DNA from: Leptodontidium sp. MPI-SDFR-AT-0119
Taxonomy: Eukaryota > Ascomycota > Leotiomycetes > Helotiales > Leptodontidiaceae
Assembly (NCBI GenBank): GCA_020726505.1
Contig: JAHLEZ010000018.1
Location: 124,001-188,000, forward strand
Direction: 5' to 3'
Length of the DNA stretch: 64,000 nt
In this document: piece by piece, positions 1 through 33,494 of the stretch
How positions within the stretch are numbered: the stretch's first letter is position 1
Layout of the letters: the number at the start of each line of letters is the position of its first letter
Made by a program: the position numbers and the translations under genes
The notes under the pieces: generated by a model
Database searches by the model: none
Seen by the model: the letters and a program-made list of their open reading frames with translations, nothing else
What the model was told of the DNA's origin: nothing

Positions 1-2600
1 GAGATGGAGTCGTCAGCGCTGCTGCTGGTTGGGTTGGAGGGGAGGTCGACAAGGTGAATTAGGTGTCGTGCTACCGAGAAAGGTGAGTTGTGACTCCAAT
101 TGGCGTATCACCAAGTTCGAGGGTCTTGTCTGGTGTTGTAGTTCTCGATGTGGAATCGAGGAATGTGAACTTCCTACTTGGGCGGCAGGAATTGAAGAAT
201 GCTGGGGAAAGGTGTGTGTGAAGAGCAAAGGAATTTAGTAAGAGGAAGCTCAGGTAGGTGTCGGGATGCCCTTGGTGTGGGAGTTGGGGCGGGTTCGAGT
301 TGGGAGTAGAATTGGGGAGGTTGGGTGGTGAAAACAAGATGGCGAAGTAGCGAGGCGAGCGAGCGAGGTTGAGCTTGCAGCTGGCGACGAACGAGTAAAT
401 TAATTGGGAGAAAACGCGCTGCGCATAAGAAAATCCACACGACGCGACAAAAGTAAAGTTGGAATCAGAAAAACGCGCCAGGTCGTGTATCAATTGAACG
501 GTTCAATAGCATGCGCTGAAGTCGCTGGTCGTGTGAATTGGCGAGGCGCATTTGTGGATGGATGGATGGGTTCACTTCCCTCACTCACAGACTCGAGCCA
601 ACAGCGCACTCTCTCCCTTCAGACTCGTCGCGCATGCAATTGTGGTCCCGCACGGCAGTGATTGGAGGCTGGATGGCGAGAGGTGAATGCAGGAAAGGCG
701 ACAATAGGATTGAAGATGTCATGCTCGCACAGCTCGTAGGGTGGTGGTCAATTGGGGATTCTAGCTGGCGGTGGTGATGGATGAGGTTGGATTATTGAGA
801 GGAGAGGGTGTGGAGTGGAAGAAGAAAAGAAAAGAAAAGAAATGTGAGTGAGTTCAGTGCGTGCAGTCAATGCATTGTAGTCGGTCAGTTGGTCCTCGAG
901 CCTTCCTTCACGTACGTACACAGACAGGACAGGCAGGCAGGCATGATTAGGGCAAGCAAGCAGGATGGGTGTGCGACGGGCATTAATTAATTCACTGAGT
1001 GCCCGGCTGGCTGTTGAAAGAAATGCAGTGTGATGTGATGCAACCCAGTTGTGATGCAGCCCAAAGAGCCCAATTACTCTACCTACCTATTCTATTCTAT
1101 TCTAGAAGAGCCGTGCGTCAATCAGTTAGTTGGGTACTGACTGGACTGGACTGGACTGGACTTTTCCTCTCTACTCCCTCCCTCCTCCTAGAAGATCTGT
1201 TTGTAGTTGCTTTTCAGCCAAGTATTTATTTTTTTGATATATTTATTCATTTGGTTCCAGTGGGTGGACCATCGATCAAATCGAATCCAAGTCAACTCAA
1301 GTCACAATCGTACAGTGAGTGAGTGATGGATGGCCCCGACCCGAGAATTGAGGGGGCTGGGAGGGACCGAGTCGAGCGCCACGCCACAGTGCCACGGAGC
1401 GGGCCTTCACTGCCTCGCGGCACCACCCTCAGTGCACTGACCCTAAACCCAATCCAACCCGAGCTGACCAGCCAGAGAAAGCCACGACTGCCCTGTCCTG
1501 TCTCCCTGTGCTCGCTTCCAATCCTGCGGGTATGTGAGTGGCCAGGGGCTGGCATTTATTTGAAAGCGGGCACTTCAGTACTGTACAGTAGATGCAATGC
1601 AAATGCACCGGTAGGGGATATGCTTATTATGTACTGTACTTCTAAGGGGGTTTTGTTTGCATCTTCTCCTTTTCATTGCATCACTCGCTTCTTTCTTTCT
1701 TCTCTGCATAAGTAATTAATTAGTCCTATCTATCTAGTTATCCATATTTCTCCCAAACACACTCCCTCCCTACCTCCCTCCCTGTCAAATACGAACAAAC
1801 GAACGACAGCGGAAAAGAAAACATGTCCCAAGCGCCACTGACTGACCGACTTCAGCCATGATGGACCTACTCTCAGATCAAATGTGGGCCCCGGATAGCA
1901 GAGGGAAGGCAGAGCAAGGGAGAGAAGGAGGGATGGTCCGCCAAGTGCTTTCCGTCCCGTTGGGTGCTGGGACTGACGAGAGCCAATGAGATGTTGGAGT
2001 GGCTGTTTGCTAACAATAAGCTTTGAGATGAGACGAGATGGACAAAATGAAAGTTTGGGATCGGGAAGGTGCAGATACACGTGGAGATGGAGAAAGAGAG
2101 GATTCATCGAGGGTCGGATGGCATGAGATTTTGGGTCGATGTCTTGCCCGAGTTCGAGGGGCTTTGGTAAATTAGTCGGGAGGTTGAATTCAGCTGAGAT
2201 GAGATGTTTGTTTGAAGGGAAATGAAGGACGCTGGCGTGTTGTGTCATGAATTACTGGGCTCACAAGTGAGAGGCTACAGTTGAGAAGGACAGTTTCCCT
2301 TGTGAAGTCCGAGGAGCTTGCTAGGTGTCTGCCCTCTCAACTTCTCATCACATGCTCACGTGATATCACTATTGCTCCTCAATGACCAGCCCAGGAAAGT
2401 CGAAGCACCAGAGGTAGCATTTAAAATTCTATGGCATCGGACTTATGCATGGAAGCTAGTTTCCTACTAATCATCTCTGGCATAGCAAGGTTTGAATGGG
2501 TGATCTTGCACCAAGTGGCTGCTTGACCATTACTTCATGCACAAAGTGAATCATTCACTCAACTTTTCATTCACTCCGTTGACCAATGTCACATACGACT
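1..2600. other. GC-normal non-coding stretch with microsatellites
   Basis: I see no convincing gene here. Open frames are short, overlap in several frames and have no recognisable domain. The stretch is rich in short tandem motifs (GGAT repeats near 555-570, AGGC near 925-945, TTCTA near 1090-1105, CTGGA near 1141-1160, AAGAA near 825-842). It may be the upstream or untranslated region of a gene lying to the left of the window. Confidence 0.5.
1141..1161. repeat. (CTGGA)n microsatellite
   Basis: Four tandem CTGGA units, preceded by a partial unit. Confidence 0.8.
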
Positions 2601-6727
<4,127 letters not shown>

Positions 6728-15051: not shown

Positions 15052-15236
15052 TGTCGTACAGGCACGGGCTGATGCTCGGTTAGCTGCGCGCTATGCTGGA
15101 TATGGTTTCTGCCACGTTATACCGCTTTCAGGAGAACAATATATTCTCCTGATTTCCTTATATATTTTAAAGAATAATTAACTACTTTAATTCTCCTTAC
15201 GTTAATCGTAAGGCTCTACTCTACTTTTATACTATA
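15052..15236 (+). repeat. 5' LTR of Copia copy 1
   Basis: 185 bp, begins TGTCGTACA and ends ACTATA, the RIP form of ACCACA. It aligns without gaps to 22505-22689 and to the reverse complements of 25856-26040 and 33310-33494. Confidence 0.95.
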
Positions 15237-15257
15237 GTTATAAGCCCCGTGACGAAG
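15237..15257 (+). promoter_or_regulatory. Copia primer-binding site, complementary to an internal part of initiator Met-tRNA
   Basis: Directly after the 5' LTR, GTTATAAGCCCCGTG continues into ACGAAG. Its reverse complement reads CTTCGTCACGGGGC followed by TTATAAC, which with one RIP change is the D-arm and anticodon stem-loop (CTCATAAC) of eukaryotic initiator Met-tRNA. Priming from a cleaved half-tRNA is known from the Drosophila copia element. The same site is at 33289-33309 in the inverted copy. Confidence 0.7.
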
Positions 15258-15299
15258 TTATTAAGTTAATATTTTTCCTTTTATACTCTATAGATTTAA

Positions 15300-18200
15300 G
15301 TAGAGCTATTAACGTAAGATTAATAAGTAACGAATAACGTCGGCGTTTTTTACTTATTAATAAGTACAGTTTACACCGCCATTTTCCCTTTAACCTCTCT
15401 AGAAAAGGGTAAATCGAGTACTTATACTTAATATTCTCTTCTCTTCTTTAATAAATCCATCGAACCCTCGAGAGAGTAACCCTCTCTTTGCTATAGTAGA
15501 CTTAACTTCAGTCTCCTCTTTTAATAATCGAACGCCGCTTAATTACAATAAGTAAACTTAGACCCTATAGTATTAAGCCTTTAAATTCTTTTATATCTTT
15601 TATAAGGTATAGACTTCAGTTAATCTAGAGTTACCGGTCGCTCTAAATATCCTCGAAAACGAGCCTTAAGTACAAACAATCGACTAAGTAAAGGTATAAT
15701 AGGACAAGGAGGCTCTCGATTTCAACTTTAGGGAGTAAGTAAAGTAAAATAGAGACTAACGAGTACTTAAACTTAAAGGACTTAAATTAAGTATAATACC
15801 TCTTATATTATTTAACGTTATTATAGTTACTTTAATATATACTGCCTTAATAAGGGAGTATATTATAAAACACGCATAATAGTCGGAAAAGGCTTAAGCC
15901 TATAAAGTAGTATATAAGTGGATTTAAGAGACAATTAATCCTTTAATTTACTAAAGTGTTATTTAAGAGTGTGAGATTAAGGAGGAATAGAGAGCGAAAG
16001 AGTAACTTAATAAGATAATAAACGAACTAAACGACTTATAATCTTAAACTTTATAAATACTCCTTAAGGTATTAAAGAGAAACTACGCCCCGTCGGAAAC
16101 AAGTAATATCACTAAAGCTCAAGCCAAATATAAAGAGAAGCTCGAAATTGTCAAAATAAAACGAGTTAATCCTAAGGTATAAATTTAAGAGTAACAATTA
16201 GTCTATTAAGATACTTTATTATACGACATTCTAGACGTTAAGGGCCCCTTAGTAATCATTAACTTTATTAAGGTAATGCAAGAGAAGCTCGTACTTAAAT
16301 AGGCTCGCGAACGACTGTCTAAAGTCCTTAGAGATAATACTCTTAGAGTTACTCACAAGTACTTATTACTTTAATACGTTAACTAACTATTAGCGCTTAA
16401 TAAAGAGTCTCTTATAGTTACTAAAAGAAACAAGACAGTTAGATTATACGTTACACTTAAAAGGAGATTAAATACTTTAAGAGTACTACTAATACTAAGG
16501 ACTCCTTCGCCAAATACCTCGATTAACACTTGCCCTTATAAAGTAAGCTCTTACCGACATAAAGCGATCGAGTGTTACAGACTTTAATATTACTACGACG
16601 GCTTAACTAAGGACAAACTACGTAACTTACTATCTACAGAAGAAATTAAGGAAACCCGAATCAAGCTTAAAAAGGAGTTTCCCGACCTTAAACGAGTAAT
16701 CGGCAAGAAAGAGTAAAGACAAGTAATAATAAAGGAAATTACTAAGGGAATAACCTCCGAAAACTCCTTGTCTTTTCTAATAACCTCAGTAAAAGCCTTA
16801 GAACTATTAAGGTATCCCGGCAATATTAATATATATATATAATTAGTTTAAAGTTACTTAATAAGGCTTTCGCCACCTTAAGAATTTACGCTACTATTAA
16901 TATAAATCGACACTTATTCTTAGAGAGTACCTTACTTAATAACGGCGCTATTACTTATTTAGTTAATTCGATTGCTTTATTAGAGCTTAAAACCTTTATT
17001 AAATTAATAAACGACGACAGTATTAAAGCCGGAACGTCGAGCCTTATAATTAAGGGCCGAGGTACTTGTCTTTTTAAGGGTACTCTCTATGGCCCTAACG
17101 GACTAAACACTAAGGACTTAAGGCTTTTTAACGTCGCTGTCGTTAAAGGATTTAATATTAATATTATTTTAGAAGCTTATTTATTATAGGCTAGAGTTTA
17201 ATATAATAGGTTAAATTACACGTTACGCGTGGGATTAACTAAGAGGAGTATTATATTAAATTAATTAAAGTGACAGTTTAATTTAGCTTTCTTTAAATAT
17301 AAGCCTTTTAACTACTCTTTAACTCCTGTAATAACTCTTAACTCTTTAATTCGCTTAACTTATACTTTTTTAATATTCCTTACGCTTTAAAGGAGTATTC
17401 GACAAGGTTTTTAATTAAGTCGACGATATTTGAGACCGCGGCTAAACGACGCTAGGTTATAGCACTTATAAGTAGGGCACTTAGGGAAGGAAGTATTAGA
17501 GAATTTAGTCAAAAATGCGCGTAACGTTAAGATCTTAAGTATTATTTAAATTAAGTGTAAAGAGTACTCTCTAACTGTCGCGTAATAAGTCGTTAGTCGA
17601 AGACCTTCAGAGAAAACAGCTACCTAGCCTTTTTATCGCATTTTTTAAGACTTATTCGACTTCCCTGTCGGATTTAATAAGAACAACTAGCTCTTATTAG
17701 TTAAAGACTAATATAATAAGAAATTCTATAAATAACTCTTAAAAAACAAAAGTTAATCACTGTCTTAAGAACTCTTAAACCGTTTAAGGCGTAGACGAGA
17801 CGTTAATTTAGACTCTCGATTTACAAAATACGCTAAGATAACGACACCTTAGTTATAAGAATTAATAAATTAACTAAGTACGAAAAGTAATATACAGAGA
17901 ATAATATTAATATTAAGGGTACCCTTTCGTATACGCACTAACTTAATAAGAGAACTAAGCACGTAGGCAAGGAAATCATCGAAAAGTCTATTAAGATACG
18001 CCTTTTAATAAACTTACTAGAGAAGCTTTAAATAAAAGTAATTATAGCGGCAATTACTCTTTATAATATAAGTCCGGCTACTTAAAAAGGCTTTAAAAGT
18101 CTAAATGAGATCTTCCACGCCTAGTTTAAGCAATATTTTCAGTATTACGACCTTAAGCTTATTTAGAAGCTTAATACTAATATACGACCTAACTAAAGTA

Positions 18201-20700
18201 ATATATAGGCGTACGGCTATAAAGCCTACCCTATAATTAAGGACCGAGAGGCTCTTTAACAAAAGAGAGTATTTAAAGTCAACCTAAGAGCGCACCTTAG
18301 ATACTTAGTAAGATACGTCTCGTCTAATATATATAAGGTCTAAGTACCTCAATTATAACGTGTAATAGTGACTTAGAACGTTACTTTTAACGAATCCCTC
18401 TTTTATTTAAACTCTCTAAACGTAAAAAGAGTGGTCAGCTAGCTACGCTTAATATTAAGAGATCTTACTAAAATACTAAAAGAAGAGGAGGGACCCTAAG
18501 ACGCTAGAACTAATATAATTAATTAACTAAGCGCACTTAATATACTAGAATTAATAATAAGTACTACTTTAAAAAAGGAATAACTAAGCCAAGTAATAAG
18601 TTTTATAAAAACTACTAAGTTTATAACCTCGGGGGTACTATAGCCTTCGATTAAGCTTTTAATTACGGGGGTAAAGTAACTAATACTACCTTTAGAAAAG
18701 TCAAGATTAATAGAACTCGTTAATAAAAACTCAGGGGTAAAATAATCAAGGAAGAGTATTAGACTTCTTACTCACGAGCACCTTAATTAGGTCTTAAAAT
18801 AAGTCGACAAATCAAGACAGTTAGTGTCTTAGAGTATAATTAAAAGAAATGTCTTACGTAGCGTATTAAACTTTAAAAGAGATATAAGAGTTAAGCGTTA
18901 ATTAATACTATAAGTTATTATATACTCTTAAGGGCTATACGACTAAAAGCGCGGTCTTAAGCGTCAGGGAGTACTTACTTAAGGTGCCGGCCCTAAGTAA
19001 TTAAAAGCTCCGCCTTAAGTAATAAAGTATAAAGAATATCTTAATTTATTAAACTTAAGAAAAGAATTAAGTATAAAGTAATACTTATTACTTCCGGCCT
19101 TAACTAATAATAACTTACTTAAACCTTTACGGAAGAAGAGGGTAAAAGATCAAGTAATTAACGACAGTCGAAAGACCCGAGTTAGTAATAAGATTACGAA
19201 ACCGAATCGAAGCGTCTATATAACAACTATTAAAGAGCTAATTACGGAATCGTTAAACCTATTAAATAACCGTGAGTATTTAGAGGACTTTCTAAGGACC
19301 TTTTAGCCTAGTTAAAAACTAATATAAAGAGACGGGAAAGACTTAAGCGTAGTTCACGCTATAATCTTAGCGTCTATTCTTAAAAATATCGAAATTTAAT
19401 AACTAATTAATCTCCTACGAATATACTAATCTTAATTACTAAAGGACTTATTAAATTAAAGAAACCTTAAGGATTACCCTCTAAGAGAGTACTTCTGAGC
19501 CAATGTAATTAAGGAAATCACTAACTTAAAGTCGCGTAACTATTAAAGAGTCGTCAAATAAAGCTTCGTTACTAAATAACTAATACTATTAAAATAAGTA
19601 TTTCACGCTAAAGTCGATTCTCTAAGGTATTTAATTAAGTGTCACTCGCGAGTTATTATTAAGGGAGACTTACAACCCGAAACGTTAATTCTCTTAATAT
19701 ATACGGCAACCTTAATTACTTGTTCTTTTAAGACCGCTATAATAATAATAGCTCAATTTAATTTAGAGATAATCTAATTTAATATTATTAACGCCTTTAT
19801 TAACACTAAACGAAGCGAATAGAGTACTCGCGTACGCTATTACTTACTAGACAGATTTAAATAAGACGAGATAGTAGTAGAGGTTAATCGTATACTTTAT
19901 AAACTCAGAGACTCGCTAGTACTATAATACAAAGACTTTACTAGAACTTTGTCAAAGTTAAAGTTAATCCCTTATAAAGAGGAGTCTTATATCTTTATAA
20001 ACAAGTAACGTTTAGTCTTTATTATCTTTTATATTAATAATATTTAAGTGTTATATTACTCTTTAGCCCTTAAAGACGCTTAACTTATTATTAACGGCTT
20101 AAATACGGCATACGAGCTTACTAGAGGAGAACTAATAAAGTAGTTTTTAAGTATTCGCGTTATTAAAGATCGTTAAATAAAGACTATTTCTTTAATATAT
20201 AACACTTATATTTAAAAGGTTACTTTGCGATTTGACTTAATAAATAAAAATTACTTAAGTACTCTATTACTTTAAGTCAAGTTACTAAAGAATTAAGGAC
20301 AAGTAACCTTAGTTTAAATTAAGGAGTATTAAAAGAAAGTTAACTTAGTACTTTATATAATAATTATATTACGCGTAGACGTTATATTTGTAACTTTAAG
20401 ACTTTCTTACTTCTTAATTAACCCCTCTTTAAAGTACCTTGCGGCAGTTAATTAAACTATTCATTACCTCTTTAAAACCTGATTTTTACTAATTACTTAC
20501 AACTACAAACTACGCGACTCTTAGCTTATTATAGCTTCAGATACTTTATTTATAGACGATCTCGATACTAGGCGCTCTTTTAATAATTATATTATAATAC
20601 TTTTTAGAGGTTTAATCTTATAAAAAGCGGCCTTATAAAATACAGTTACTACTTCGACTACACAGGCTAAGCTTTTAAGCGTTAAGCGTATGACTAAGGA
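15300..20700 (+). pseudogene. Copia gag-pol (copy 1, RIP relic)
   Basis: Read through stops: a Gag region with a knuckle-like 'C P Y K V S S Y R H K A I E C' near 16520-16570; protease near 16880-17000 ('NNGAITYLVNS'); integrase near 17450-18250 starting with the HHCC motif ('HL*VGHLGKEVLENLVKN'); reverse transcriptase near 19560-20200, with 'NRILYKLRDSLVL*Y' (Copia 'LxKALYGLRQSPxxW') and 'YINNI' at 20030-20044 in place of the catalytic 'YVDDI', as expected from TG-to-TA change; RNase H to about 20620. Protease-integrase-RT is the Copia order. It cannot be translated now. Confidence 0.88.
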
Positions 20701-21305
20701 GATTATAACTTTATAACGTTTCTTTTAAGAGTTACGTCTTAAGTTAAGGGAAATTTAGAGAATCTTCTGCGATAATTAGTAAACGATACAGTTAATTATT
20801 AGGGAAAATTAGCGCATCTCTACTAAGCTACGCCACGTTAATATTTAGAATATATAATTACGCCAAGAGTTTCAAAAGGGCACTTTTTTAGTCGAATATT
20901 TACTTACGAGTTATATACCCGCTAATAGACTTATAAAGAACCTCTCTCGACAGAAATTTAAGAATTTTATTACTCTTATTAACTTAGTCGATATTTATAC
21001 TTAACTAGAGTAACTTACTATAAAGCCCTCACTTTAAAGTAAGTCTTTATACACGTTCTTTACTTTTTCCTTTATTATAAGGGTATTTTCTTATATATTT
21101 ATTATTCCTTTATAAATTCTCTTATTATTTCATTTACTTAAAGAGTAATTAAGCTTAAGAGTGAAATTCACAGTATTTAAAAGATTTAATTACTCTCAAT
21201 AGTTATTCGTTTTTATAATAAAAGTAACGTAATATAAGTAAATTATAAGGGGACACTTAATTATTTAGAGGTTCTTAAGCCTTGCCTTATATAAAAGAGA
21301 GTAAC

Positions 21306-22133
21306 TTATATAATTAAAAGGCCTAAAACCTCCCGAACTAAGTCACTTAACACACTAGTAATCACCTTAATAAGTTCCTTAACCCGAGTAGCTTAAGCTT
21401 CTTGCTCTAGTGTGAGAGCAACTCTAGGAGGCTTATTAGCTATTAGGGCCTAGAAAGTAATAAGACTAGTACTAATGCTAGCGGCCGCAATAGTAGCTCC
21501 ACTAACTCTACTTATAGCTATAGTAAGAGTAGTAACCACAGGAGTAACAAGAGAAGCCGGAGTTGCTCCCCGAGGAGTCTCCTCACTACCCTCTAACTCC
21601 GAGGAGGAATCGACATAGAGAGTAGCCGAGGCCGCACCTAAAGCACGACTAGTAAAGCTAGTTACTCCACCGGCAGCTCTATTAATAATAACTTGACCCT
21701 TAAGGGCCGCTAAAATAAGAGCTCTTAAGCGCTCTAATTCCTAAAAAGGTTAGTAATTACACGTTAGAAAAGAATAACTTAAGGAATTTACTTTCTCGCT
21801 TACGTTATTTAAAAGCGTAGCCTAATAAACTAAGAAGGGGGCCTAAGTAGTAGCAGGAATAACCTTATAAGAGTGGCCTAAGGCGCACGCAAAGTAGCGA
21901 GTACCCCGACTAATAATATTAAAGTACTCGCCGGTACTTTTAGTTTAAAGGGCGCTATTAATATAACCTAAGTAAATAACTACACGCTTAGCTCCCTTAA
22001 TACAAGGAGCACGAGCACGAGTAATAAGAGCAGCTACAGTAGCTCTCTTTAGAGTAAGAGTAGCCTTTAAAGCCTTTTTAGCCTCCTTCTTCTTCTTCGC
22101 CTACTATAATTAGTAATACTTAAATTAATATAT
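21306..22133 (-). pseudogene. Antisense accessory gene of Copia copy 1 (zinc-binding-like N-terminus)
   Basis: Lies between pol and the 3' LTR on the opposite strand. From the position of the lost start (ATA at 22133, where the other copy has ATG) it runs 276 codons in one frame if TAA/TAG are read as RIP-changed CAA/CAG. It begins with a Lys-rich tract ('AKKKKEAKKALKAT'). A conserved segment 'INSALQTKSTGEYFNIISRG' (one Q from TAA) follows, then 'TRYFACALGHSY', a Cys/His motif in which Y replaces C at several places. Next is a Ser/Thr/Ala-rich linker unlike copy 2, then a C-terminal segment 'KELIKVITSVLSDLVREV' that looks amphipathic. A 39-bp in-frame stretch absent from copy 2 (about 21746-21784) has GT...CTAAC...TTTTTAG features and may be an intron. 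Function unknown. It belongs to neither gag nor pol. Confidence 0.75.
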
Positions 22134-22504
22134 AACTTTAAGATCGACGATTAACTCAATTTAATTTAAATAACTTACAACGGCGGACAGACGATTAGCT
22201 TTGACGGTAGTAGCAAATCGTCGTAAGACACCTATAATGCCGGTTAATCGATTTATTAATTGATTAATTAATTGTTAATTAATTAATTAGTTAGTAGATC
22301 GAAAAGAGTCGATTTATATAATGTAAAGTAGTTACAGGATTAAGAATCAAGTGGGGGCTGCGCCACTTTAAATAGGAGGGTTATTTGCTTAACTTAATAG
22401 TACAGGAATAGTTGTGGCCTAAGTATTTAGTTTAGTGTTTACTCTCGCTTAACGTAGCTAACTATAATACTAGTAGCTTACTATTATCACTTAGCTAAGG
22501 GGTG

Positions 22505-22689
22505 TGTCGTACAAGTACGGGCTAATACTCAGTTAGCTACGCGCTATACTAAATATAGTTTCTGCCACGTTATACTACTTTTAAGAGAATAATGTGTTCC
22601 CCTGATTTCCTTATATATTCTAGAAAATAATTAACCACTTTAATTCTCCCTACGTTAATCGCAAGGCTCTACTCCACTTCTGTACCACA
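22505..22689 (+). repeat. 3' LTR of Copia copy 1
   Basis: 185 bp, TGTCGTACA...GTACCACA, less mutated than the 5' LTR at its end. Followed by the CCCTT target duplication. Confidence 0.95.
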
Positions 22690-25083
22690 CCCTTATAATA
22701 CTTACTAAAAAGGACGTCCCCTTCGTCTTCGACAACGCTTATAAAAACGCCTAAGAGACTCTCTAGGAAGCCCTTTAGTCTACGCCGGTTCTCTATTACT
22801 ACGACCTTATTAAGTAAACGTAACTAAAGACTAATTCCTCGGATAAAGTTATTATTAAGGTTCTATTTTAACTTCAAAAGGACGACTCTTTTTACTTTAT
22901 AAAATACTTCTCTAAGACTATAATAAACCCTGAGCTTAACTACTCGATCCACGACAAAGAGATACTAGTAATTTTCTAGTCATTTAAGTAATATCGCCCG
23001 GAGCTCTTAAGTGCCTAGAAGAAAGTCCTTATTTACATAAACTACTAAGCCTTAAAGTATTTTATAATTACTAAGGACTTTACGGCTAAGTAAGCTTAAT
23101 AAGCTGAGTTCTTTACGAATTTCTATTTTATAATTATATATTATACTAAGACAACTAATACGTTAGTTAATACCTTGTTTCGACAGGATTAAGACCTTAC
23201 GGTTATAGAGGCACGTAAGCGGGCTATTTGTAGTTAATAATTAATTCCGACTAATAAAATCGACTCGCGAGTCGTTAGCGACTTTTAACTCTCTGCCGTT
23301 GATCTTATAGACGCCTATATTAAAGTCGTAAAGACAATACCCCTAGTACTTATAAAGGCTATAATCCCGGACCACGATACTAAGTCACGTGACGAGCTAG
23401 AACTAGAACTAGAGCCTAATATAAGAGTACTAGTCGACCTAGAAATCCCTACGCTAAAAGAGTTAAACCTTAACTTTATAATAGCCTATAATATCGCGGG
23501 ATACGATATTATTAATTAAGTACTCTTAACTAATAAGTCTTCGCTTTTACTAGAGCCTCTCTAATAAAAAGCTAAGGAATAGTTATTAAATTATAAACTA
23601 ATAAACGACAAATTACTTTTCTAAGGACGCTTAAAAGTGCCTTTAAAACTGCCGGAACTTTACACGACACTTATTTACTATATATATTTTTAACCTTTAG
23701 TAATATACACAGGGATTAGAAAGACGAAGGCATTACTAAGTCGTAAATATCATTAGAACGGCCTCACCACAGACATAACTCAATACGTAATAAACTATAG
23801 TTACTCTTAATAAAAAGCCTATAAGAATAAAACCCTTAGTTTCTTACACCCCCTACTAATACTTACTCGGCCGTATTAACACCTTATAATAGACTTTACG
23901 AAGCTACCCCTCGACAAGTATAGCTATAACTTCGTTATAGTTATTATTAATCGCTTATTTAAGAAACTAGTCTCGATATCTTATAACGATATAATTACGG
24001 CTAAAGGTATAGTTATTCTTTTCCTTATTTATTAGACTCGATACTTTAGTATACTAGACTTTATTATCTCGGACTAAGGACTTTAATTTGTCTCCTCTAT
24101 TTAAAAAGAATATTATTATATCCTCGGGACTAAGGTAAAGTTAACGACGGCGTATAACTTAAACGTCGACGGCTAAATAAAGGTAACGAACTAATATATT
24201 AAATAGCGGCTTTATCCCTTTTACTACTATTACTAAGACAACTAAAGCGACCTCTTACTAATTATAAATATCACCTAATTAACGTTATTATATAAGTCCT
24301 TAGGCCACTTGTCTCTTTTTTAATTACTTAATAACGTTAAGTTAAGGACTTCCTAGGACTTAATTAACTTAAAGCCACCGGCTATAATAATAAAGAAACT
24401 TAATCGCGAAGAGGCTTTATAAGTAACTTTATAAATAAAAGAAATTATAGAAGTTATATAATTGTCTCTAAAAGACTAATAAGAAAAAATAAAACGACTA
24501 GTAAACCGTGGGTAACGCGCCGTCGATTAAGACGTTAGCGACTTAATACTAGTCGACACTTAGAACTAAAACGTTAATTAACCTTTAAGGAAGTTATCTA
24601 ATAAGTAATACGGCCCTATTAAAGTAATCGCTAGAGAAGGAGAGAGTTAAAGAGTTAAACTCTTAGAAGACTAGTTAATTTATCCCGTCTTTTACTTGCA
24701 CTCGCTCTATAAGTACGTTAATAACCCCTTATTAAAGCAAGCTAAAGTTACGCCGGCACTTATCTAGCTATTACTTAAGTAAAATAAGTGGGAAATTAAA
24801 GGCATCTTTAACTCTAAAGTCATACGGAATAAGCTATTTTACTATATTAAGTAACTAGGCGCTGACGAAGACTTAAAGTAGTACTTATACTTAGACGCTA
24901 TAATAACTCTATATATAATTAAGAGGTTCTACTTAAAGCATCTTAATACTAAAGGCCTACTAAGAGCTTTCTTAAAGTAGCTAAAGGCTTATAACGCTAG
25001 TATTAACGACTATAACGACCTAAAAGATAATATAATTATAACTATAACTACGCGGACGCAGTTTTTTAGGAGGGGGGGGGTAA
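22690..25083 (+). pseudogene. Gypsy RNase H, integrase and chromodomain (RIP relic, second part)
   Basis: Continues the Gypsy pol frame after the Copia insertion ('PL..LTKKDVPFVFDNAYKNA', the RT/RNase H connection). The integrase lies near 23870-24330 ('DFTKLPLDKYSYNFVIVIINR', 'DFIISDQGLQFVSS'). A chromodomain-like segment lies near 24775-24960 ('KWEIKGIFNSKVIRNKLFYY', then 'DEDLK*YLYLDAI'), which places the element among chromoviruses. Chromodomains in these elements are thought to direct integration to marked chromatin. It ends at the G-rich tract before the 3' LTR. Confidence 0.85.
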
Positions 25084-25385
25084 TATTACGACTTACGATA
25101 CGCCTCGTATTCTAATTAACACGGGCTCGTAACATCGCTGGCTATACGATGGCGCTAAGCCTAATAAAGAAGACTAAGTGGCGAGCCTATAATATATTGA
25201 CGTAAATAGCACTCGACTACGCTAAGCCCTATTAGGAGGGTCCTTTATATATATATACTCGAGCCCTCCCTTATAAAGAGCTCTCCTTTCCTCTTTGTCT
25301 TTTCTTCTCGATTCTGAGCGTAGCCTTAGGTCTAAATACAAAGCTTGAGTCAACTCGCCGTATCAACCTTTGGCCAGCCGTAACA
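25084..25385 (+). repeat. 3' LTR of the Gypsy element
   Basis: 302 bp, begins TATTACGAC (RIP form of TGTTACGAC) and ends GCCGTAACA. It is the less mutated partner of 11186-11487 at its right end. Confidence 0.93.
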
Positions 25386-25855
25386 GTTTAGTTTCATTTA
25401 ATTTAGAACTTAAAAATAGATTAATAAAAAAATTAATAAATTAAAAGTACATACTTATAAGTATTACTTATTAATCTACTAATATTATTAATACCCTCTT
25501 TAAAGATATCGTGACTACTTTATAAACTAGTAATTAATACTCCTAAAGTAATATTTCTTGTAAGGCCACTTATAATATTAAATATAAAGTTTTGATTATT
25601 ATTAGTACTACTATAATATTTTCTTAGGCTATTCTCTCGATTTCTGCGTTATTTCTACTTTTATAAACGTATATTAATTTAATATAAAAAAAATACTTCG
25701 TATAATATTCCTTATTACGGCGACGACGCTTAGTTAGTTATTCTTTATTTAATAAATCATTTAGGGAATTATTAAGTTTACTTTTATAAGTAGTAAACCC
25801 AGAATTCTCTCTTATTAGAGATAAAAATAAGAGTACTAGAGGCTTATTATAAAGA
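25386..25855. other. RIP-degraded sequence between Gypsy and the second Copia
   Basis: 470 bp, very A+T-rich. It is probably part of the same unit as 33500-35498, because Copia copy 2 with its AAAGA duplication sits between them. On the minus strand, 25450-25409 has an intron-like form (GTAC...AG) with a TTATTAAT-rich body resembling the units at 33764-34299. No protein recognised. Confidence 0.5.
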
Positions 25856-26040
25856 TGTGGTACAGAAGTGGAGTAGAGCCTTGCGATTAACGTAGGGAGA
25901 ATTGAAGTAGTTAATTGTTATCTAGAATATATAAGGAAATCAGGGGAACACGTTATTCCCCTAAAAGCGGTATATGCTAATAGAATCTAAAACTAGTATA
26001 GCGTATAACTAACCGAGCATCAGCCCGTGCCTATACGACA
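25856..26040 (-). repeat. 3' LTR of Copia copy 2
   Basis: 185 bp; reverse complement of the copy 1 LTR with transition differences. The adjoining CACCCCTT (26041-26048) is the polypurine-like tract on the element's coding strand. Confidence 0.95.
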
Positions 26041-26415
26041 CACCCCTTAGCCAAGTGATAATTGTAAGTCATTAATATTATAATTAGTTACTTTAAGCGA
26101 GAGTAAACACTAAACTGAATAATTAGGCTATAACTATTCTTGTACTATTAAGTTAAGTAAATAACCGTCTTATTTGAAGTGGCGTATCCCCCACTTAATT
26201 CTTGATCTTACAACCTCTCCACAACACATATAAATCGACCTTTCGATCTACTAACTAATTAATCAATTAATAATTAATTAACTAATTAATAAATCAATTA
26301 ATTAATACTATAAGTGTATTAGTGCGCTCTGTTAAGGCCGTTAAGGCTAATCGTTTGGCTGCTATTGTAAGTTATTGAGTTGATTTTTGTTGAGCTAATC
26401 GTTAATTTTAGGGCT

Positions 26416-27208
26416 ATGTGTTAATTTGAATATTACTAACTATAGTAGGCGAAGAAGAAAAAGGATACTAAGAAGGCTCCAAAGGCTACTTCTGCTCTAA
26501 AGAGAGCTGCTGCGGCTGCTTGTGCTTATACTCCCCGGGTTAAGGGAGATAAGCGTTTAGTTATTTGTTTAAGTTACATTAATAGCGCCCTTTAAACTAA
26601 AAGCACTGGCGAGTGCTTTAATGTTATTAGTCGGGGTACTCGTTGTTTCGCCTACTTATCGGGCCACTCTTGTAAGGCTGCTCCCCCTGCTGCCTAGGCT
26701 CCTTTCCTCCTCTACCGCACTGCGCTCTTAAACGACGCAGGTAAAAAGGTAAATTCCTAGGAATTGGAGCGCCTAAGAGCTCCTGTTTTTGCTGCCCTCT
26801 GGGGTGAGGCTGCTACTTCTGCTACTAATAGAGTAACCGGCTTAGGAGGAGGTGACGAGGAGGAGGAAGATGAGGGTAGTGCTATTATTGAAGAGTTTAG
26901 TATATTGTTCTATTTTGAATTTCCCGCGAAATTGAGGCTAAATCGGTTGATTTCTTTTAGATAAAGAGAACTCCTTTAATACTTCAGAGGTTCATGCGCG
27001 GGTTACTAGAAAGTAACTTACTGTTGCTGCTAGTGCTTTGTTCTCTCTAGAGCCTACTCGTGGACTTGCTAGTGTTAGTGGAGCTCCGGCTCTTACTCTT
27101 AAAGAAGAGGCTTCGGCCGCTTGTATTAACGAGCTTTATAGTATGATTAGAAGTGCCTTAGTTACTTTAGCTAGGGAAGTTCGGGGCTTGTTACTTAGAG
27201 ATAATTAG
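26416..27208 (+). pseudogene. Antisense accessory gene of Copia copy 2, with an intron
   Basis: Starts at ATG 26416 ('MC*FEYY*L**A' followed by KKKKD). Every stop in exon 1 (26416-26899) is TAA or TAG, and the surrounding residues fit Gln, as RIP of CAA/CAG gives. Domains: a Lys/Ala-rich basic start; 'KRLVICLSYINSAL', then 'TGECFNVISRG' and 'TRCFAYLSGHSC', a Cys/His cluster; an acidic 'GGGDEEEEDEGS' linker; and a C-terminal segment 'INELYSMIRSALVTLAREVR'. Removing a predicted intron 26900-26960 (GTATAT donor, GGCTAAAT branch, TTTTAG acceptor) joins 'IIEEF' to 'NKENSFNTSEV' in frame, and the total is 244 codons to TAG 27208. That last TAG may itself be a mutated CAG, so the end is uncertain. 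Orientation is opposite to gag-pol of its element. No family recognised. Confidence 0.75.
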
Positions 27209-27799
27209 GTTGCTCTCTTTTTATAAGGCGAGGCTTAGGAACCTCTAAACAATTAAGTGTCCCTTTATAATTTACTTGTGTTACGTTACTTTTACTATAA
27301 AAACGAACAACTGTTAAGAGTAATTAACTCTTTTAAATGCCGTGAATTTTACCCCTGAGCTTAGTTGCTCTCAAAGTAAATTAAATAATAAGAGAATTTA
27401 TAAAGTAATAACAAATATATAAGAAAATATATTGTGTATTTATAAGGTGAGCTTACAGTTAAACTACCCTTATATAAAAGAAAGGTAAAAAACGTGTGTA
27501 AAGACTTACTTTAAAGCGAGGGCTCTATAATGAGTTGCTCTAGTTGAGCACGAACATTTATTAAGTTAATAAGAGTAATAAAACTCTTAAATTTTTGCCG
27601 AGAAAGGTTCTTTATAAGTCTATTAGCGGGCATATAACCCGTAAGTAAATATTCGACTAAAAAAGTGCCCTTTTAAAACTCCTAGCGTAACTATATATTT
27701 TAAATATTAACGTAGCGTAACTTAATAAAAATACGCTAATTTTCCTTAACAATTAATTATATTATTTATTAATTGTTATAAAAGATCTTCTAAATTTCC

Positions 27800-30700
27800 C
27801 TTAACTTAAGACGTAGCTCTTAAAAGAAACGCTATAAAGCCATAATCTCCTTAGCCGTGCGCTTAACACCTAAAAGCTTAGCTTATATAGTCGAAGTAGT
27901 AATTATATCTTATAAGGCCGCTTTTTATAAGATTAAACCTCTAAAAAGTATTATAATATAACTATTAAAAGAACGCTTAATATTAAGATCGTCTATAAAT
28001 AAAGTATCTAAAGCTATAATAAGCTAAGAGTCGCGTAGCTTATAATTATAAGTAATTACTAAAAATCGAGTTCTAAAGAAGTAACGAATAATCTAATTAA
28101 CTGCCGCAAGGTACTTTAAAGAGGGGTTAGTCAAGAAGTAAGAAAGTCTTAAAGTTATAAACGTAACGTCTGCGCGTAATATAATTATTATATAAAGTAC
28201 TAAATTAACTTTCTCTTAATACTTCTTAATTTAAACCGGGGTTACTTGCCCTTGATTCTTTAATAGCTTAACTTAAGGTAATAAAGTATTTAAGTAATTT
28301 CTATTTACTAAGTCAAATCGTAGAGTAACTTTTTAAATATAAGTGTCGTGTACTAAAGAAATAGTCTTTACTTAATAATCTCTAATAACGCGAACACTTA
28401 AAAACTACTCTATTAGTTTTCCTTTAGTAAGCTCGTATACTGTATTTAAGCCGTTAATAATAAGTTAAGCGTCTCTAAGGGCTAAAGCGTAGTATAACAC
28501 TTAAATATCGTTAATATAAAAGATAACAAAGACTAAACGTTACTCGTTTATAAAGATATAAGGCTCCTCCTTATAAGGAATTAACCTTAACTTTAATAAA
28601 GTCTTAGTAAAATCTTTATATTATAGTACTAGCGAGTCTTTAAGTCCGTAGAGCGTATAATCAACTTCTACTATTATATTATCTTATTTGAATCCGTCTA
28701 ATAAGTAATAACGTACGCGAGCACTCGATTCGCTCCGTTTAATGTTAATAAAGGCGTTAATAATATTAAATTAAATTATTTCTAAATCAAATTAAGCCGC
28801 TATTATTATAACGGTCCTAAAAGAGCGAGCAATTAAAGTAACCGCATATATTAAGAGAATTAACGTTTCGGGTTATAAGTCTCCCTTAATAATAACTTAC
28901 AAGCGACATTTAATTAAATACCCTAACGAATCGACTTTAGCGTGAAATACTTATTTTAATAGTATTAGTTATTTAGTGGCGAAGCTTTATTTAACGACTC
29001 TTTAGTAGTTGCGCGACTCTAAATTAGTGATTTTCTTAATTACGTCGGCTTAGAAGTGCTCTCTTAAAAGGTAATCCTTAAGGTCTTTTTAATTTAATAA
29101 GTCCTTTAGTAATTAAGATTAGTATATTCGTGGGAGATTAACTAGTTATCGAATTTCGACATTTTTAAGAATAGACGCTAAGATAATAACGTGGACTACG
29201 CTTAAGTCTTTTCTGTCTCTTTATACTAACTCTTAACTAAGCTAAAAGGTCCCTAGAAAATCCTCTAAATACTTACGGTTACTCGACGGGTTTAACGATT
29301 CTATAATTAACTCTTTAATAATTATTATATAAATACTTTAATTTAGTTTCGTAATCTTATTACTAACTCGGGTCTTTCGACCGTCGCTAGTTACTCGATC
29401 TTTTACTCTCTTCCTTTATAAAAGTTTAAGTAAGTTATTATTAGTTAAGGTTAGAAGTAATAAGTATTACTTTGTACTTAATTCTTCTCTTAAGTCTAAC
29501 GAATTAAGATACTCCTTATATTTTATTACTTAAGGCGGAGCTTTTAATTACTTAGGGCCGGCACCTTAAGTAAGTGCTCCCTACGCTTAAGACCGCGCTC
29601 TTAGTCGTATAGCCCTTAAGAGTATATAATAACTTATAATATTAATTAGCGCTTAGCTCTTATATCTCTCTTAAAGTTTAATACGCCACGTAAAATATCT
29701 CTCTTAATTATACTTTAAGACACTAACTGTTTTAATTTGTCGACTCGTTTTAAGACTTAATTAAAGTACTTATGAGTAAGAAGTCTAATACTCTTTTTTA
29801 GTTATTTTACCCCCGAGTTTTTACTAACGAGTTTTATTAATCTTAACTTTTTTAAAGGTAGTATTAGTTACTTTATCCCCGTAATTAAAAGCTCAATCGA
29901 AGGCTATAGTACCCCCGAGGTTATAAACTTAGTAGTTTCTATAGAACTTATTACTTAACTTAGTTATTCCCTTTTTAAAGTAGTACTTATTATTAATTCT
30001 AATATGTTAAATGCGCTTAGTCGATTAATTATATTAGTTCTAGCGTCTTAGGGTCCCTCCTCTTCTTCTAGTATTTTAGTAAGATCTCTTAATATTAAGC
30101 GCGGCTAGCCGACCGCTCTTTTTACGTTTAAAGAGCCTAAATAAAAGAGGGATTCGTTAAAAGTAACGTTCTAAGTCACTATTATACGCTGTAATTAAAG
30201 TACTTAGACCCTATATATATTAGACGAGACGTATCTTATTAAGTATCTAAGGTGCGCTCTTAAGTTGACTTTAAATGCTCTCTTTTATTAAAGAGCCTCT
30301 CGGTCCTTGATTATAAGGTAAGCTTTATAGCCGTACGCTTATATATTACTCTAATTAAGTCGTATATTAATATTAAGTTTTTAAATAAGCTTGAGGTCGT
30401 AATACTAAAAATATTACTTAAACTAAGTATAGAAGATCTTATTTAGACTCTTAAAGCCTTTCTAAGTAGCCGGACTTATATTATAAAGAGTAATTGCTAT
30501 TATAGTTACTTCCGTTTAAAGCTCCTCTAATAAGTTTACTAAAAGGCGTATCTTAATAAACTTTTCGATAATTTCCTTGCTTACGCGCTTAACTCCCTTA
30601 TTAAGTTAGTACGTATACGAAGGGGTACTCTTAATATTAATATTATTCTTTATATACTACTTTTCGTACTTAATTAATTTATTAATTCTTATAATTAAAG

Positions 30701-33250
30701 TATCGTTATCTTAGCGTATTTTGTAAATCGAGAGTCCGAATTAACGTCTCGTTTACGCCTTAAATAGTTTAAGAGCTCTTAAGACGGCAATTAACTCTTT
30801 GTTTTTTAAGAGTTATTTATAGAATTTCCTATTATATTAGTCTTTAATTAACAAAAGCCAGTTATTCTTATTAAATCTAATAAGGAAGTCGAATAAGTCT
30901 TAAGAAATGCAATAAAATAGCCAGGTAACTGTTTTCTTTAAAGGTCTTCGACTAACAACTTACTACGCGCTAGTTAGAAAGTACTCTTAACACTTAATTT
31001 AAGTAGTACCCAAGATCTCGACGTTACGCGCATTTTTAACTAAATTCTCTAACACTTCTTTTCTTAAGTGCCTTACTTATAAGTACTATAACCTAGCGTT
31101 GTTTAGCCGCGGTCTCAAATATCGTCGACTTAATTAAAAGCCTTGCCGGATATTCCTTTAAAGCGTAAGAAATATTAAAAAAGTATAAGTTAAGCGAGTT
31201 AAAGAGTTACGAGTAACTATAAAAGCTAAAGAGTAATTAAAAGGCTTATATTTAAAGAAAGTTAAGTTAAACTGTTACTCTAATTACTTTAACACAATAC
31301 TCTTCTTAGTTAATTCCACGCGTAACGTATAGTTTAACTTATTATATTAAACTCTAGCTTATAATAAACAAGCTTCTAAAATAATATTAATATTAAATCC
31401 TTTAACGACAACGACGTTAAAAAGCCTTAAGTCCTTAGTATTTAGTCTATTAAGGCTATAGAGAGCACCCTTAAAAAGACGAGTACCTCGGCCCTTAATT
31501 ATAAGGCTCGACATTCCGGCTTTAATACTGTCGTCGTTAATTAATTTAATAAAGGTTTTAGGCTCTAATAAAGTAACCGAATTAACTAAATAAGTAGTAG
31601 CGCCGTTATTAAGTAGGGTGCTCTCTAAGAGCAGGTGTCAATTTATATTAATAGTAACGTAGATTCCTAAAGTAGCGAGAGCCTTATTAAGTAACTTTAG
31701 ACTAATTACATATATATTAATATTGCCAGGATACCTTAGTAGCTCTAAGGCTTTTACTGAGGTTATTAGAGAAGACGAGGAGTTTTCGGAGGTTGTTCCT
31801 TTAATAATTTCCTTTATTATTACTTATCTTTACCCTTTCTTATTAATTACTCGTTTAAGGTTAAGAAACTCCTTTTTAAGCTTAATTTAGGTTTCCTTAA
31901 TTTCCTTTATAAATAGTAAGTTGTATAGTTTGTCCTTAATTAAGCCGTTATAATAATATTAAAGTTTATAACACTCGATTACTTTATGTTAGTGAGAGCT
32001 CACCTTATAAAGGCAAGTGTTAAGCGAGGTATTTAGTAAAGGAGTCCTTAGTATTAGTAGTATTCCTAGAGTATTTAATCTCCTTTTAAGTATAACGTAT
32101 AATTTAATTATCTTATTTCTTTTAGTAGCCGTAAGAGACTCTTCGTTAAGCGCTAATAATTAATTAACGTATTAAAGTAACGTGTACTTGTAAATAACCC
32201 TAAGAATATTGTCTTTAAGGACCTCAAATAGTCGTTCGCGAACTTATTTAAGTGCGAGCTTCTCTTACACTGTCTTAATAAAGTTAATAATCGCTAAGGG
32301 GCCTTTAACGTCCAGAATGTCGTATAATAAAGCATTTTAGTAAATTAATCGTTACTCTTAAATCCACACCTTAAGATTAACCCGTCCTATTTTAACGATT
32401 TCGAGTTTCTCTTTATATTTAACTTAAGCTTTAATAATGTTACTTATTTCTAAAGGGGCGTAATCTCTCTTTAATACTTTAAGGAGTATTTATAGAGTCT
32501 AAAATCGTGGGGCGTTTAGTTCGTCCGTTATTTTATTAAGTTACTCTTTTACTCTTTATTCTTCTTTAATCTCACACTCTCGAACAATACTCTAGTAAAT
32601 CGAAGGATTAATTGTCTCTTAAATCTACTTATATACTACTTTATAGGCCCGAGCCTTTTCCGACTATTATATATGTTTTATAATATATTCCTTTATTAGG
32701 GCAATATATATTAAAGTAACTATAGTAACGTTAGACAATATAAGAGGTATTATATTTAATTTAAGTCCCTTGAGTTTAAGTATTCGTTAGTCTTTATCTT
32801 ACTTTACTTACTCTTTAAAGTTAAAATCGAGAGCCTCCTTATCTTATTGTGCCTTTACTTAGTCGATCGTTTGTGCTTAAGGCTTATTTTCGAGGATATT
32901 TAAAGCGACCGGTTACTCTAGATTAACTAAAGTCTATACTTTGTGAAAGATATAAAAGGATTTAAAGGCTTAATATTATAGGGTCTAGGTTTACTTGTCG
33001 TAATTAAGCGGCGTTCGATTATTAAAAGAGGAGACTAAAGTTGAGTCTATTATAATGAAGAGAGGGTTACTCTCTTAAAGGTTTAATAGATTTGTTAAAG
33101 AGGAGAAAAGAATATTAAGTATAAGTGCTCGATTTACCCTTTTCTAAGGAAGTTAAAGGGAAAATAATAATATAAACTATACTTATTAATAAGTGGAAAA
33201 CGCCGACGTTATTTGTCACTTACTAATCTTATATTAATAGCTTTATTTAA
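27800..33250 (-). pseudogene. Copia gag-pol (copy 2, RIP relic)
   Basis: Mirror image of the copy 1 pol region. For example, the stretch ending near 28230-28390 aligns base by base with 20150-20310 of copy 1, the differences being transitions. It contains the integrase, RT and RNase H relics in the Copia order on the minus strand. All frames are broken by TAA/TAG. Confidence 0.85.
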
Positions 33251-33309: not shown

Positions 33310-33494
33310 TGTAATACAAAAGTGGAGTAAAGCCTTGCGATTAACGTAGGGAGAATTGAAGTAATTAATTATTGTCTAGAATACATAAGGAAATCAGGGG
33401 AACACGTTATTCCCCTGAAAGCGGTATACGCTGGCAGAATCTGAAACTAGTATAGCGCACAACTAACCGAGCATCAGCCCGTGCCTGTACGACA
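33310..33494 (-). repeat. 5' LTR of Copia copy 2
   Basis: 185 bp, ending TGTACGACA at 33494, followed by the AAAGA duplication. It adjoins the half-tRNA primer site at 33289-33309. Confidence 0.95.

Follow-up and report, generated by a model that had tools for sequence, protein, structure and literature searches.

Both full-length Copia retrotransposons in the window (the whole 64,000-nucleotide stretch analysed, corresponding to contig C10:124001-188000 in the 77-Mb, 69-contig genome of the helotialean fungus Leptodontidium sp. MPI-SDFR-AT-0119) share a gene that lies on the strand opposite to gag-pol, in the interval from pol to the 3' LTR, as the initial annotation had proposed, and this gene recurs across the host genome. 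Its position and strand are clear, its frame bears the marks of selection, it has splice signals and putative introns whose lengths change, and its 3' part exists in two versions, A and B, which recombine with their neighbours. The joint reading that we favour, and hold to be probable though some way short of secure, is that of a conserved antisense gene with predicted introns and with two long-diverged 3' versions that have recombined among elements, likely through template switching, a gene that would encode a small nuclear regulator protein. In position, in strand and in the conservation of the protein across many family copies, the gene is of the aORF-3R class. The two elements have the following parts.

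Copy 1, 15052-22689, forward strand: whole element, with a 5-bp target duplication, CCCTT
Copy 1, 15052-15236, forward strand: 5' LTR of about 185 bp, starting TGTCGTAC, with CCCTT directly before it
Copy 1, 15300-21060, forward strand: gag-pol region, approximate limits, heavily RIP-changed, placed by alignment of copies and PF25597
Copy 1, 19520-20243, forward strand: reverse transcriptase region, approximate, placed by homology to the RVT_2 match in the related element L070/L082
Copy 1, 22505-22689, forward strand: 3' LTR, with CCCTT directly after it
Copy 2, 33494-25856, reverse strand: whole element, with a 5-bp target duplication, TCTTT
Copy 2, 33310-33494, reverse strand: 5' LTR, with TCTTT outside it
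Copy 2, 27530-33250, reverse strand: gag-pol region, approximate limits, placed by alignment of copies
Copy 2, 25856-26040, reverse strand: 3' LTR, placed by LTR comparison

The 185-bp LTRs with TG..CA ends and the 5-bp target duplications are those of Ty1/copia elements, and an SH3-like integrase end before RVT_2 is a further likeness to the fungal members of that group. On read-through pieces of pol from the damaged window copies, Pfam detected only this integrase end (SH3_retrovirus, PF25597, at about 18179-18406 in copy 1) and no RVT_2; the latter is found downstream of PF25597 in the related copy L070/L082 (C4:830839-831570, E 8.6e-19), the pol of which shares 82% identity with each of the window copies across 3.5 kb. 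Integrase thus precedes reverse transcriptase, which is the Copia order, as read through this relative, and L070 has the same antisense gene 1.1 kb downstream of its RVT_2-bearing pol. The initial annotation had looked to conserved homologues in other Copia copies, and such homologues exist, for example L070 and L083, both within Copia flanks. It is the opposite-strand gene that separates the present elements from standard fungal Ty1/copia elements, in which we know of no gene on that strand. The two LTRs of an element differ by one transversion in 192 sites, in copy 1 as in copy 2, and by 7 to 9 transversions when LTRs are compared between the copies.

The surroundings of both elements are AT-rich, and in pol the depletion of CpA and TpG together with an excess of TpA is the mark of repeat-induced point mutation (RIP). 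Mixed G/A columns in the alignment of copies occur at 158 of 159 TG, 144 of 199 AG, 77 of 103 CG and 45 of 79 GG sites, and RIP in this genome acts in more than one context. Because RIP makes transitions only, transversions were counted as the measure of history and selection, and transitions were left aside. RIP in this way sorts the changes, transitions being mostly its own product and transversions recording history, and this allows direct questions about selection on the antisense protein, the reality of its introns and the exchange of modules between retrotransposons. Copies of the gene are numerous: at least 44 host-genome matches were obtained with the gene of copy 2 as query (40 of 111 first-look candidates scored), at least 40 with that of copy 1 (40 of 115 scored), and at least 140 similar stretches at the protein level (140 of 183 scored). 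Our main alignment comprises 55 gene copies with their flanks, the incomplete copies L034, L038 and L053 being left out.

The antisense frame recognised by the initial annotation stands, but the gene starts further out than had been drawn, with an additional exon (exon 0) at 26310-26366 in copy 2 and 22235-22179 in copy 1. Similarly, the intron previously predicted at 26900-26960 has GT..AG ends and a counterpart of 60-63 nt in all 20 aligned A-type copies, but two others, introns 0 and 1, had been missed; after alignment of the 55 copies the single-intron model was replaced by one with three predicted introns in the lineage of copy 2 and two in that of copy 1.

Copy 1, 22179-22235, reverse strand: exon 0, 19 codons, start reading ATA; matched in alignment by residues 1-19 of the Leptodophora models P0004 and P0007
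Copy 1, 22101-22178, reverse strand: predicted intron 0, 78 nt, GTAAGT..TACTAAT..TAG, from length comparison across copies
Copy 1, 21792-22100, reverse strand: exon 1, 103 codons, coding for the basic N-terminus and the conserved central block, from alignment and codon periodicity
Copy 1, 21741-21791, reverse strand: predicted intron 1, 51 nt, GTAAAT..TTACTAACC..TTTTTAG; the host model P0002 is spliced at it in copy L051
Copy 1, 21306-21740, reverse strand: exon 2, B-type cassette, ending at a TAA stop, from copy alignment
Copy 2, 26310-26366, forward strand: exon 0, 19 codons, start reading ATA, from alignment with Leptodophora models
Copy 2, 26367-26448, forward strand: predicted intron 0, 82 nt, GTAAGT..TTACTAAC..TAG, from length comparison across copies
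Copy 2, 26449-26748, forward strand: exon 1, 100 codons, from copy alignment
Copy 2, 26749-26760, forward strand: remnant of predicted intron 1, 12 nt, after a 39-bp internal deletion, from copy alignment
Copy 2, 26761-26899, forward strand: exon 2, start of the A-type cassette, with an acidic linker, from copy alignment
Copy 2, 26900-26960, forward strand: predicted intron 2 (A type), 61 nt, GT..AG, from comparison of lengths and splice ends
Copy 2, 26961-27208, forward strand: exon 3, A-type C-terminus, ending at TAG, from copy alignment

The ATA at the start of exon 0 we infer to be the RIP product of ATG. Intron 0, with the signals GTAAGT, TTACTAAC and TAG, could be measured in 56 of 69 copies and is 78 nt long in 21, 82 in 22, 86 in 12 and 77 in one; the three principal lengths belong to three lineages and cover all residues modulo three, while the flanking codons are unchanged. 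GTAAGT is kept in 17 of 56 copies counted as readable there, one of which, L051, is without homologous upstream sequence; ATAAGT is its usual replacement. Intron 1, signalled by GTAAAT, TTACTAAC and either TTTTTAG or TTTCTTCAG, was found in 62 of 68 copies when TAA or TAG was allowed as its end, with lengths of 51 nt (43 copies), 52 (14), 49 (3) and 50 (2), so that in most copies it is a multiple of three. Intron 2 is restricted to A-type copies, its lengths do not differ by threes, and the reading frame resumes after it.

GT and AG are both intact at intron 0 in 13 of 46 copies, at intron 1 in 39 of 55 and at intron 2 in five of 20, namely L001 (window copy 2), L004, L005, L043 and L045, which come from both A subgroups. 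In the remaining intron 2 copies a G has become A at the donor, the acceptor or both, apart from one with TA at the acceptor, and AG ends the intron in five of 20. The donor of intron 0 is GT in 15 of 46 copies and AT in 31; among the copies, splice ends such as those corresponding to window positions 26367 and 22178 are often hit by changes of the RIP type. We read these lost ends as RIP because G/A columns are frequent in every context. In most copies the signals of introns 0 and 2 are incomplete, and such copies cannot themselves show the signal. Besides damaging the codons of the antisense gene, RIP probably also abolishes its splicing.

Introns 0 and 1 are supported by host and Leptodophora gene models, which are themselves predictions. 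Three of the six named models (P0002, P0004 and P0006) have a junction precisely at intron 1 and P0003 shares only its acceptor, while exon 0 is joined to exon 1 in the Leptodophora models P0003, P0004, P0007 and P0008; the latter junction in P0007 reads MGVLRRSATTVKANRLSAV followed by AKKKK, and that of P0002 at intron 1 reads NNIREK followed by ELKRL. P0002 is annotated on the host copy L051 (C69:1961085-1963702), from which the 3' LTR side has been lost, and the 928 bases upstream contain no motif recognisable from the first eight residues of the annotation. P0004, with 236 residues, is without part of the central block, like other Leptodophora models, and several of these skip parts of exon 1 by extra introns that our analysis does not support. 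It is likely that the Leptodophora models were made ab initio; the paper on that genome, the strain of which we assume to be the one behind the database models, cites funannotate, and the word 'RNA' is absent from its main text so far as this was available.

We propose that the antisense gene would be transcribed from a promoter near the 3' LTR and then spliced. Its introns would persist through retrotransposition, a point made by the initial annotation and supported here, because the packaged sense genomic RNA carries them backwards, as an unspliceable reverse complement.

The evidence that the frame encodes a protein lies in the distribution of transversions among codon positions. Variable columns at positions 1, 2 and 3 number 9, 5 and 20 in exon 1 (55 copies) and 4, 3 and 9 in exon 2 (35 copies of the B type, counting those of deep clade D), giving 13/8/29 in sum (chi-square p 7e-4 against evenness); the control flanks have no codon periodicity (intergenic 8/6/6, UTR 12/11/8). 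Comparisons between lineages give transversion values at positions 1, 2 and 3 of 0.0151, 0.0015 and 0.0377 for exon 2 of D against B, 0.058, 0.007 and 0.076 for the exon 1 core of the same clades, and 0.077, 0.020 and 0.110 when the distant copy L083 is compared with A-lineage copies in exon 3 (14 and 15 of 19 A copies used). The pairwise means of the analysis that gave the D-B values were taken over the first 10 of 18 A, the first 14 of 29 B and 10 D copies, with L051 and the D copies excluded from some B sets. The A copies alone are too uniform to test (exon 2a 3/1/3, p 0.42; exon 3 3/2/6, p 0.12). Four-fold sites are sometimes no faster than non-degenerate ones (the D-B ratio in exon 1 is 1.07) and are too few for a firm ratio, and so the case for constraint is made by position 2 against position 3. 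Since transversions avoid the former and favour the latter, the copies show that selection has held the antisense reading frame. A gene on the sense strand was rejected in view of the antisense splice signals and gene models and of a codon periodicity that fits the antisense frame.

The predicted protein has a strongly basic, lysine/alanine-rich N-terminus (the first 58 residues of P0004, pI 12), a central block, some 60 residues long, in which low-RIP copies have as many as five cysteines, and an alanine/glycine-rich, low-complexity linker leading to a C-terminal helix. The best helical moment in the C-terminus of P0004 is 0.66; the moment of the B-type helix is reached by 197 of 5000 shuffles, and that of the A-type helix, which is not more amphipathic than shuffles, by 920 of 5000. 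Neither Pfam nor solved structures gave a domain, fold or structure match supporting a nuclear role, and weak Pfam rows for DUF3597 (0.49), Nucleoporin_FG2 (0.36) and HCMV_UL116 (0.0012) fell under the cut-off and were taken as low-complexity noise. We predict a small nuclear, self-pairing regulator of the element because the analogous product of Grande gene23 is nuclear (PMC7264820, in its available part). Such a protein would enter the nucleus, pair through its C-terminal helix and bind the nucleic acid of the element or chromatin; the basic N-terminus is at most suggestive of nuclear localisation.

An alternative origin, which we regard as possible but doubtful, is that a fungal nuclear gene was taken antisense, introns included, into a Copia ancestor and only later split into A and B. 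Antisense-kept introns are what such a capture would leave, and the lysine/alanine tail of the protein resembles that of histone H1, which gives it a cellular look. However, the 140 of 183 host-genome candidates that were scored, not every one of which was inspected, include numerous repeat copies but nothing listed as a clean single-copy gene, and a search of 5.8 billion proteins, in which the profile stage scored the best 7994 candidates by shared words, gave matches confined, among those listed, to Leptodontidium, Leptodophora and two short unnamed records. Neither search revealed a host-gene relative among the matches listed, and the A-type 3' half as query returned no protein at E <= 1. 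One gene fragment, L081 (C5:2138977-2139748), does lie outside Copia, its surroundings having no Copia match beyond one of E 0.001 in 6 kb, but it is without the first 64 nt of the searched stretch and is broken by an LTR-like insert. Within C5:2136500-2142500 the gene part spans about 2165-3237, and the insert, which measures about 280 bp, has TG..CA ends and is flanked by a duplication of 4-5 bp (GTAA or AGTAA), is probably a solo LTR; we rejected L081 as a host donor and regard it as debris.

The initial annotation held that the antisense gene diverges faster than pol, and much of what it described can be confirmed. The pol stretch 20150-20310 differs by transitions only (24, with no transversions), and the matching N-terminal motifs INSAL.TKSTGE and ISRGTR and the differing linkers are as reported. 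Between the window copies gag-pol (15300-21060) has 662 transitions, 20 transversions in 5758 sites and three gap events, against 155 transitions, 94 transversions in 757 sites and 11 gap events in the antisense gene (21306-22133), and so the higher density of transversions and indels in the gene is real (Fisher p 7e-70 for transversions). It is not, however, confined to the gene: the UTR (24 of 367) and 3' LTR (7 of 181) also exceed pol, and part of the signal belongs to the element ends. Within the gene the excess is concentrated in the 3' half, with 83 transversions in 412 sites of exon 2 against 11 in 333 of exon 1. As a side observation, gag-pol is far closer between the window copies (0.35% transversions) than are the LTRs (about 4%) or the UTR (6.5%), as though the body of the elements had been shared more recently than their ends, coding constraint explaining part of the closeness of gag-pol.

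Across the 55 copies the linker and C-terminus come in two discrete versions with no intermediates. Transversions between A and B amount to 0.241 in the linker and 0.158 in the C-terminus, compared with 0.002-0.027 within a type; the first stretch of exon 2 is milder (0.066 between, 0.015-0.033 within), the UTR/LTR side shows 0.079 between and 0.052-0.056 within, and in these copies the intergenic sequence and the 3' end of pol show 0.024 between and 0.019-0.024 within. The A-type C-terminus as query retrieved 39 A-type places in the host genome, all with E below 1e-7, together with a weaker set of 34 matches (E 3.7e-5 to 0.06), most of which are B-type C-termini, with 50-64% identity; by this similarity A and B are homologous. 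One genome offers these 39 places and 35 aligned B-type copies. With a linker peculiar to it and an apparent intron 2, L083 (C48:54300-55900) represents a third, A-like version that shares about 67% identity with the others.

A sharply two-version gene within a recombining family of elements is unusual and asks for a reason. Haplotypes were typed from transversion columns, replacing a regular-expression typing that had left many copies untyped, and under this scheme the UTR type was undecided in 28 of the 55 copies. Four-gamete violations are absent inside the C-terminal block (exon2c-exon2c, 0/171) and numerous between it and its neighbours (exon1_3p 152/171, intergenic 175/285, pol3 72/114, UTR 124/608), although the 5' part of exon 1 gives only 19/285 with the C-terminus; and each of the four possible pairings of an exon 1 type with an exon 2 type is represented (30/16/5/4 of 55 copies). 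This means that A and B move as blocks among elements, and the suggestion in the initial annotation of exchange between elements is supported by these tests. LTR elements ordinarily acquire mosaics by template switching when two RNAs share a particle, and switching between co-packaged RNAs likely made these; RNA-level switching, rather than DNA gene conversion, would yield the A/B mosaics in our model, although conversion could give the same result.

The divergence of the 3' half might instead reflect diversifying selection, as the initial annotation supposed, with rapid change within one lineage driven, for example, by an arms race with the host or other elements. We think this unlikely. The A and B linkers do align poorly, and in the C-terminus (30 codons, small counts; the C-terminal anchor fitted all 35 B copies and 16 of the 20 A copies) the types differ at position 2 (0.207) as much as at position 3 (0.194) and more than at position 1 (0.102), yet third positions as diverged as second mean that the excess does not need selection for change. 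Moreover, the block recombines as a unit, divergence within a type is small and without intermediates, and position 2 is the most conserved inside each lineage (exon 1, B/D exon 2 and A-lineage exon 3). Old alleles exchanged between co-resident elements fit the pattern, in which the large A-B difference does not extend into the intergenic sequence or the 3' end of pol, better than fast amino-acid change, with selection perhaps acting on the A-B branch alongside, and the 'faster divergence' of the gene is better read as an older common ancestor.

A more speculative proposal, to which we give little credence, is that A and B are compatibility types: the antisense protein would recognise the version it belongs to, A-bearing and B-bearing elements would regulate or exclude one another separately, and frequency-dependent selection would keep both versions unblended amid recombining surroundings; if true, this would be a system of self/non-self recognition inside a retrotransposon family. 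It is equally improbable that the antisense RNA, and not a protein, is the active product, for instance as double-stranded RNA limiting the element, a role proposed for plant antisense ORFs in the available part of a review (PMC7264820): such a role predicts neither codon periodicity nor a frame kept across introns that change in length, and both are present. Least of all do we credit an artefact, in which the RIP reading and the alignment made a chance opposite-strand frame coherent, a view encouraged by the many stops in both window copies and by the fact that tolerating TAA and TAG favours any frame, but largely refuted by an exon 2 that is naturally open over its full length in L057 and L070, by an annotated protein in another genus (P0004, provided that it is no error of annotation or assembly) and by control sequences without periodicity.

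The favoured reading of a conserved, protein-coding antisense gene has parallels elsewhere. Boty-like Gypsy elements of Botrytis cinerea reportedly carry such a gene, brtn, said to have been described by Zhao et al. in 2011 (Virology 417:248). HBZ of HTLV-1 is an antisense, spliced, regulatory gene near the 3' LTR whose product has a basic region and a coiled coil; the present gene is like it and other retroviral antisense genes in strand and in proximity to the 3' LTR, a likeness by description, the nuclear and pairing roles being here only predicted. The available text of PMC7264820 also mentions an HTLV antisense promoter. Plant LTR elements, like Boty, are already known to have antisense genes at this place in the element (PMC7264820, PMC8365987 and PMC4227169, each available in part). 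Boty, with gag, RT, IN and a chromodomain (PMC4227169, available part), is a Gypsy element whereas those described here are Copia, and no protein named as Botrytis appeared among the best 7994 candidates by shared words in the profile search with the antisense protein, the BRTN sequence itself not being compared.

The plant aORF-3R genes include those of Grande (gene23), RIRE2, Retand and PvRetro13 and agree with ours in position, strand, presence in most copies and want of similarity to known proteins; the Grande product is nuclear and has its own upstream promoter (PMC7264820, available part). They differ in having plant hosts, and the available text of the review (PMC7264820) describes no intron or two-version cassette for them, the word 'intron' occurring 0 times; nor does it give any settled function for such antisense genes. 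The open-licence literature, in the parts available, yielded no report of an antisense gene in a fungal Copia, whether simple, intron-bearing or in two versions. Antisense genes of LTR elements are as such already known, and what appears new here, against that literature, is the fungal Copia host, the predicted introns and the two exchanged versions.

Between the two Copia copies the window contains a further AT-rich stretch (22690-25845), which is probably part of a different element family. Sequence from about 25346-25386 within it recurs, as judged by eye, beside L081.
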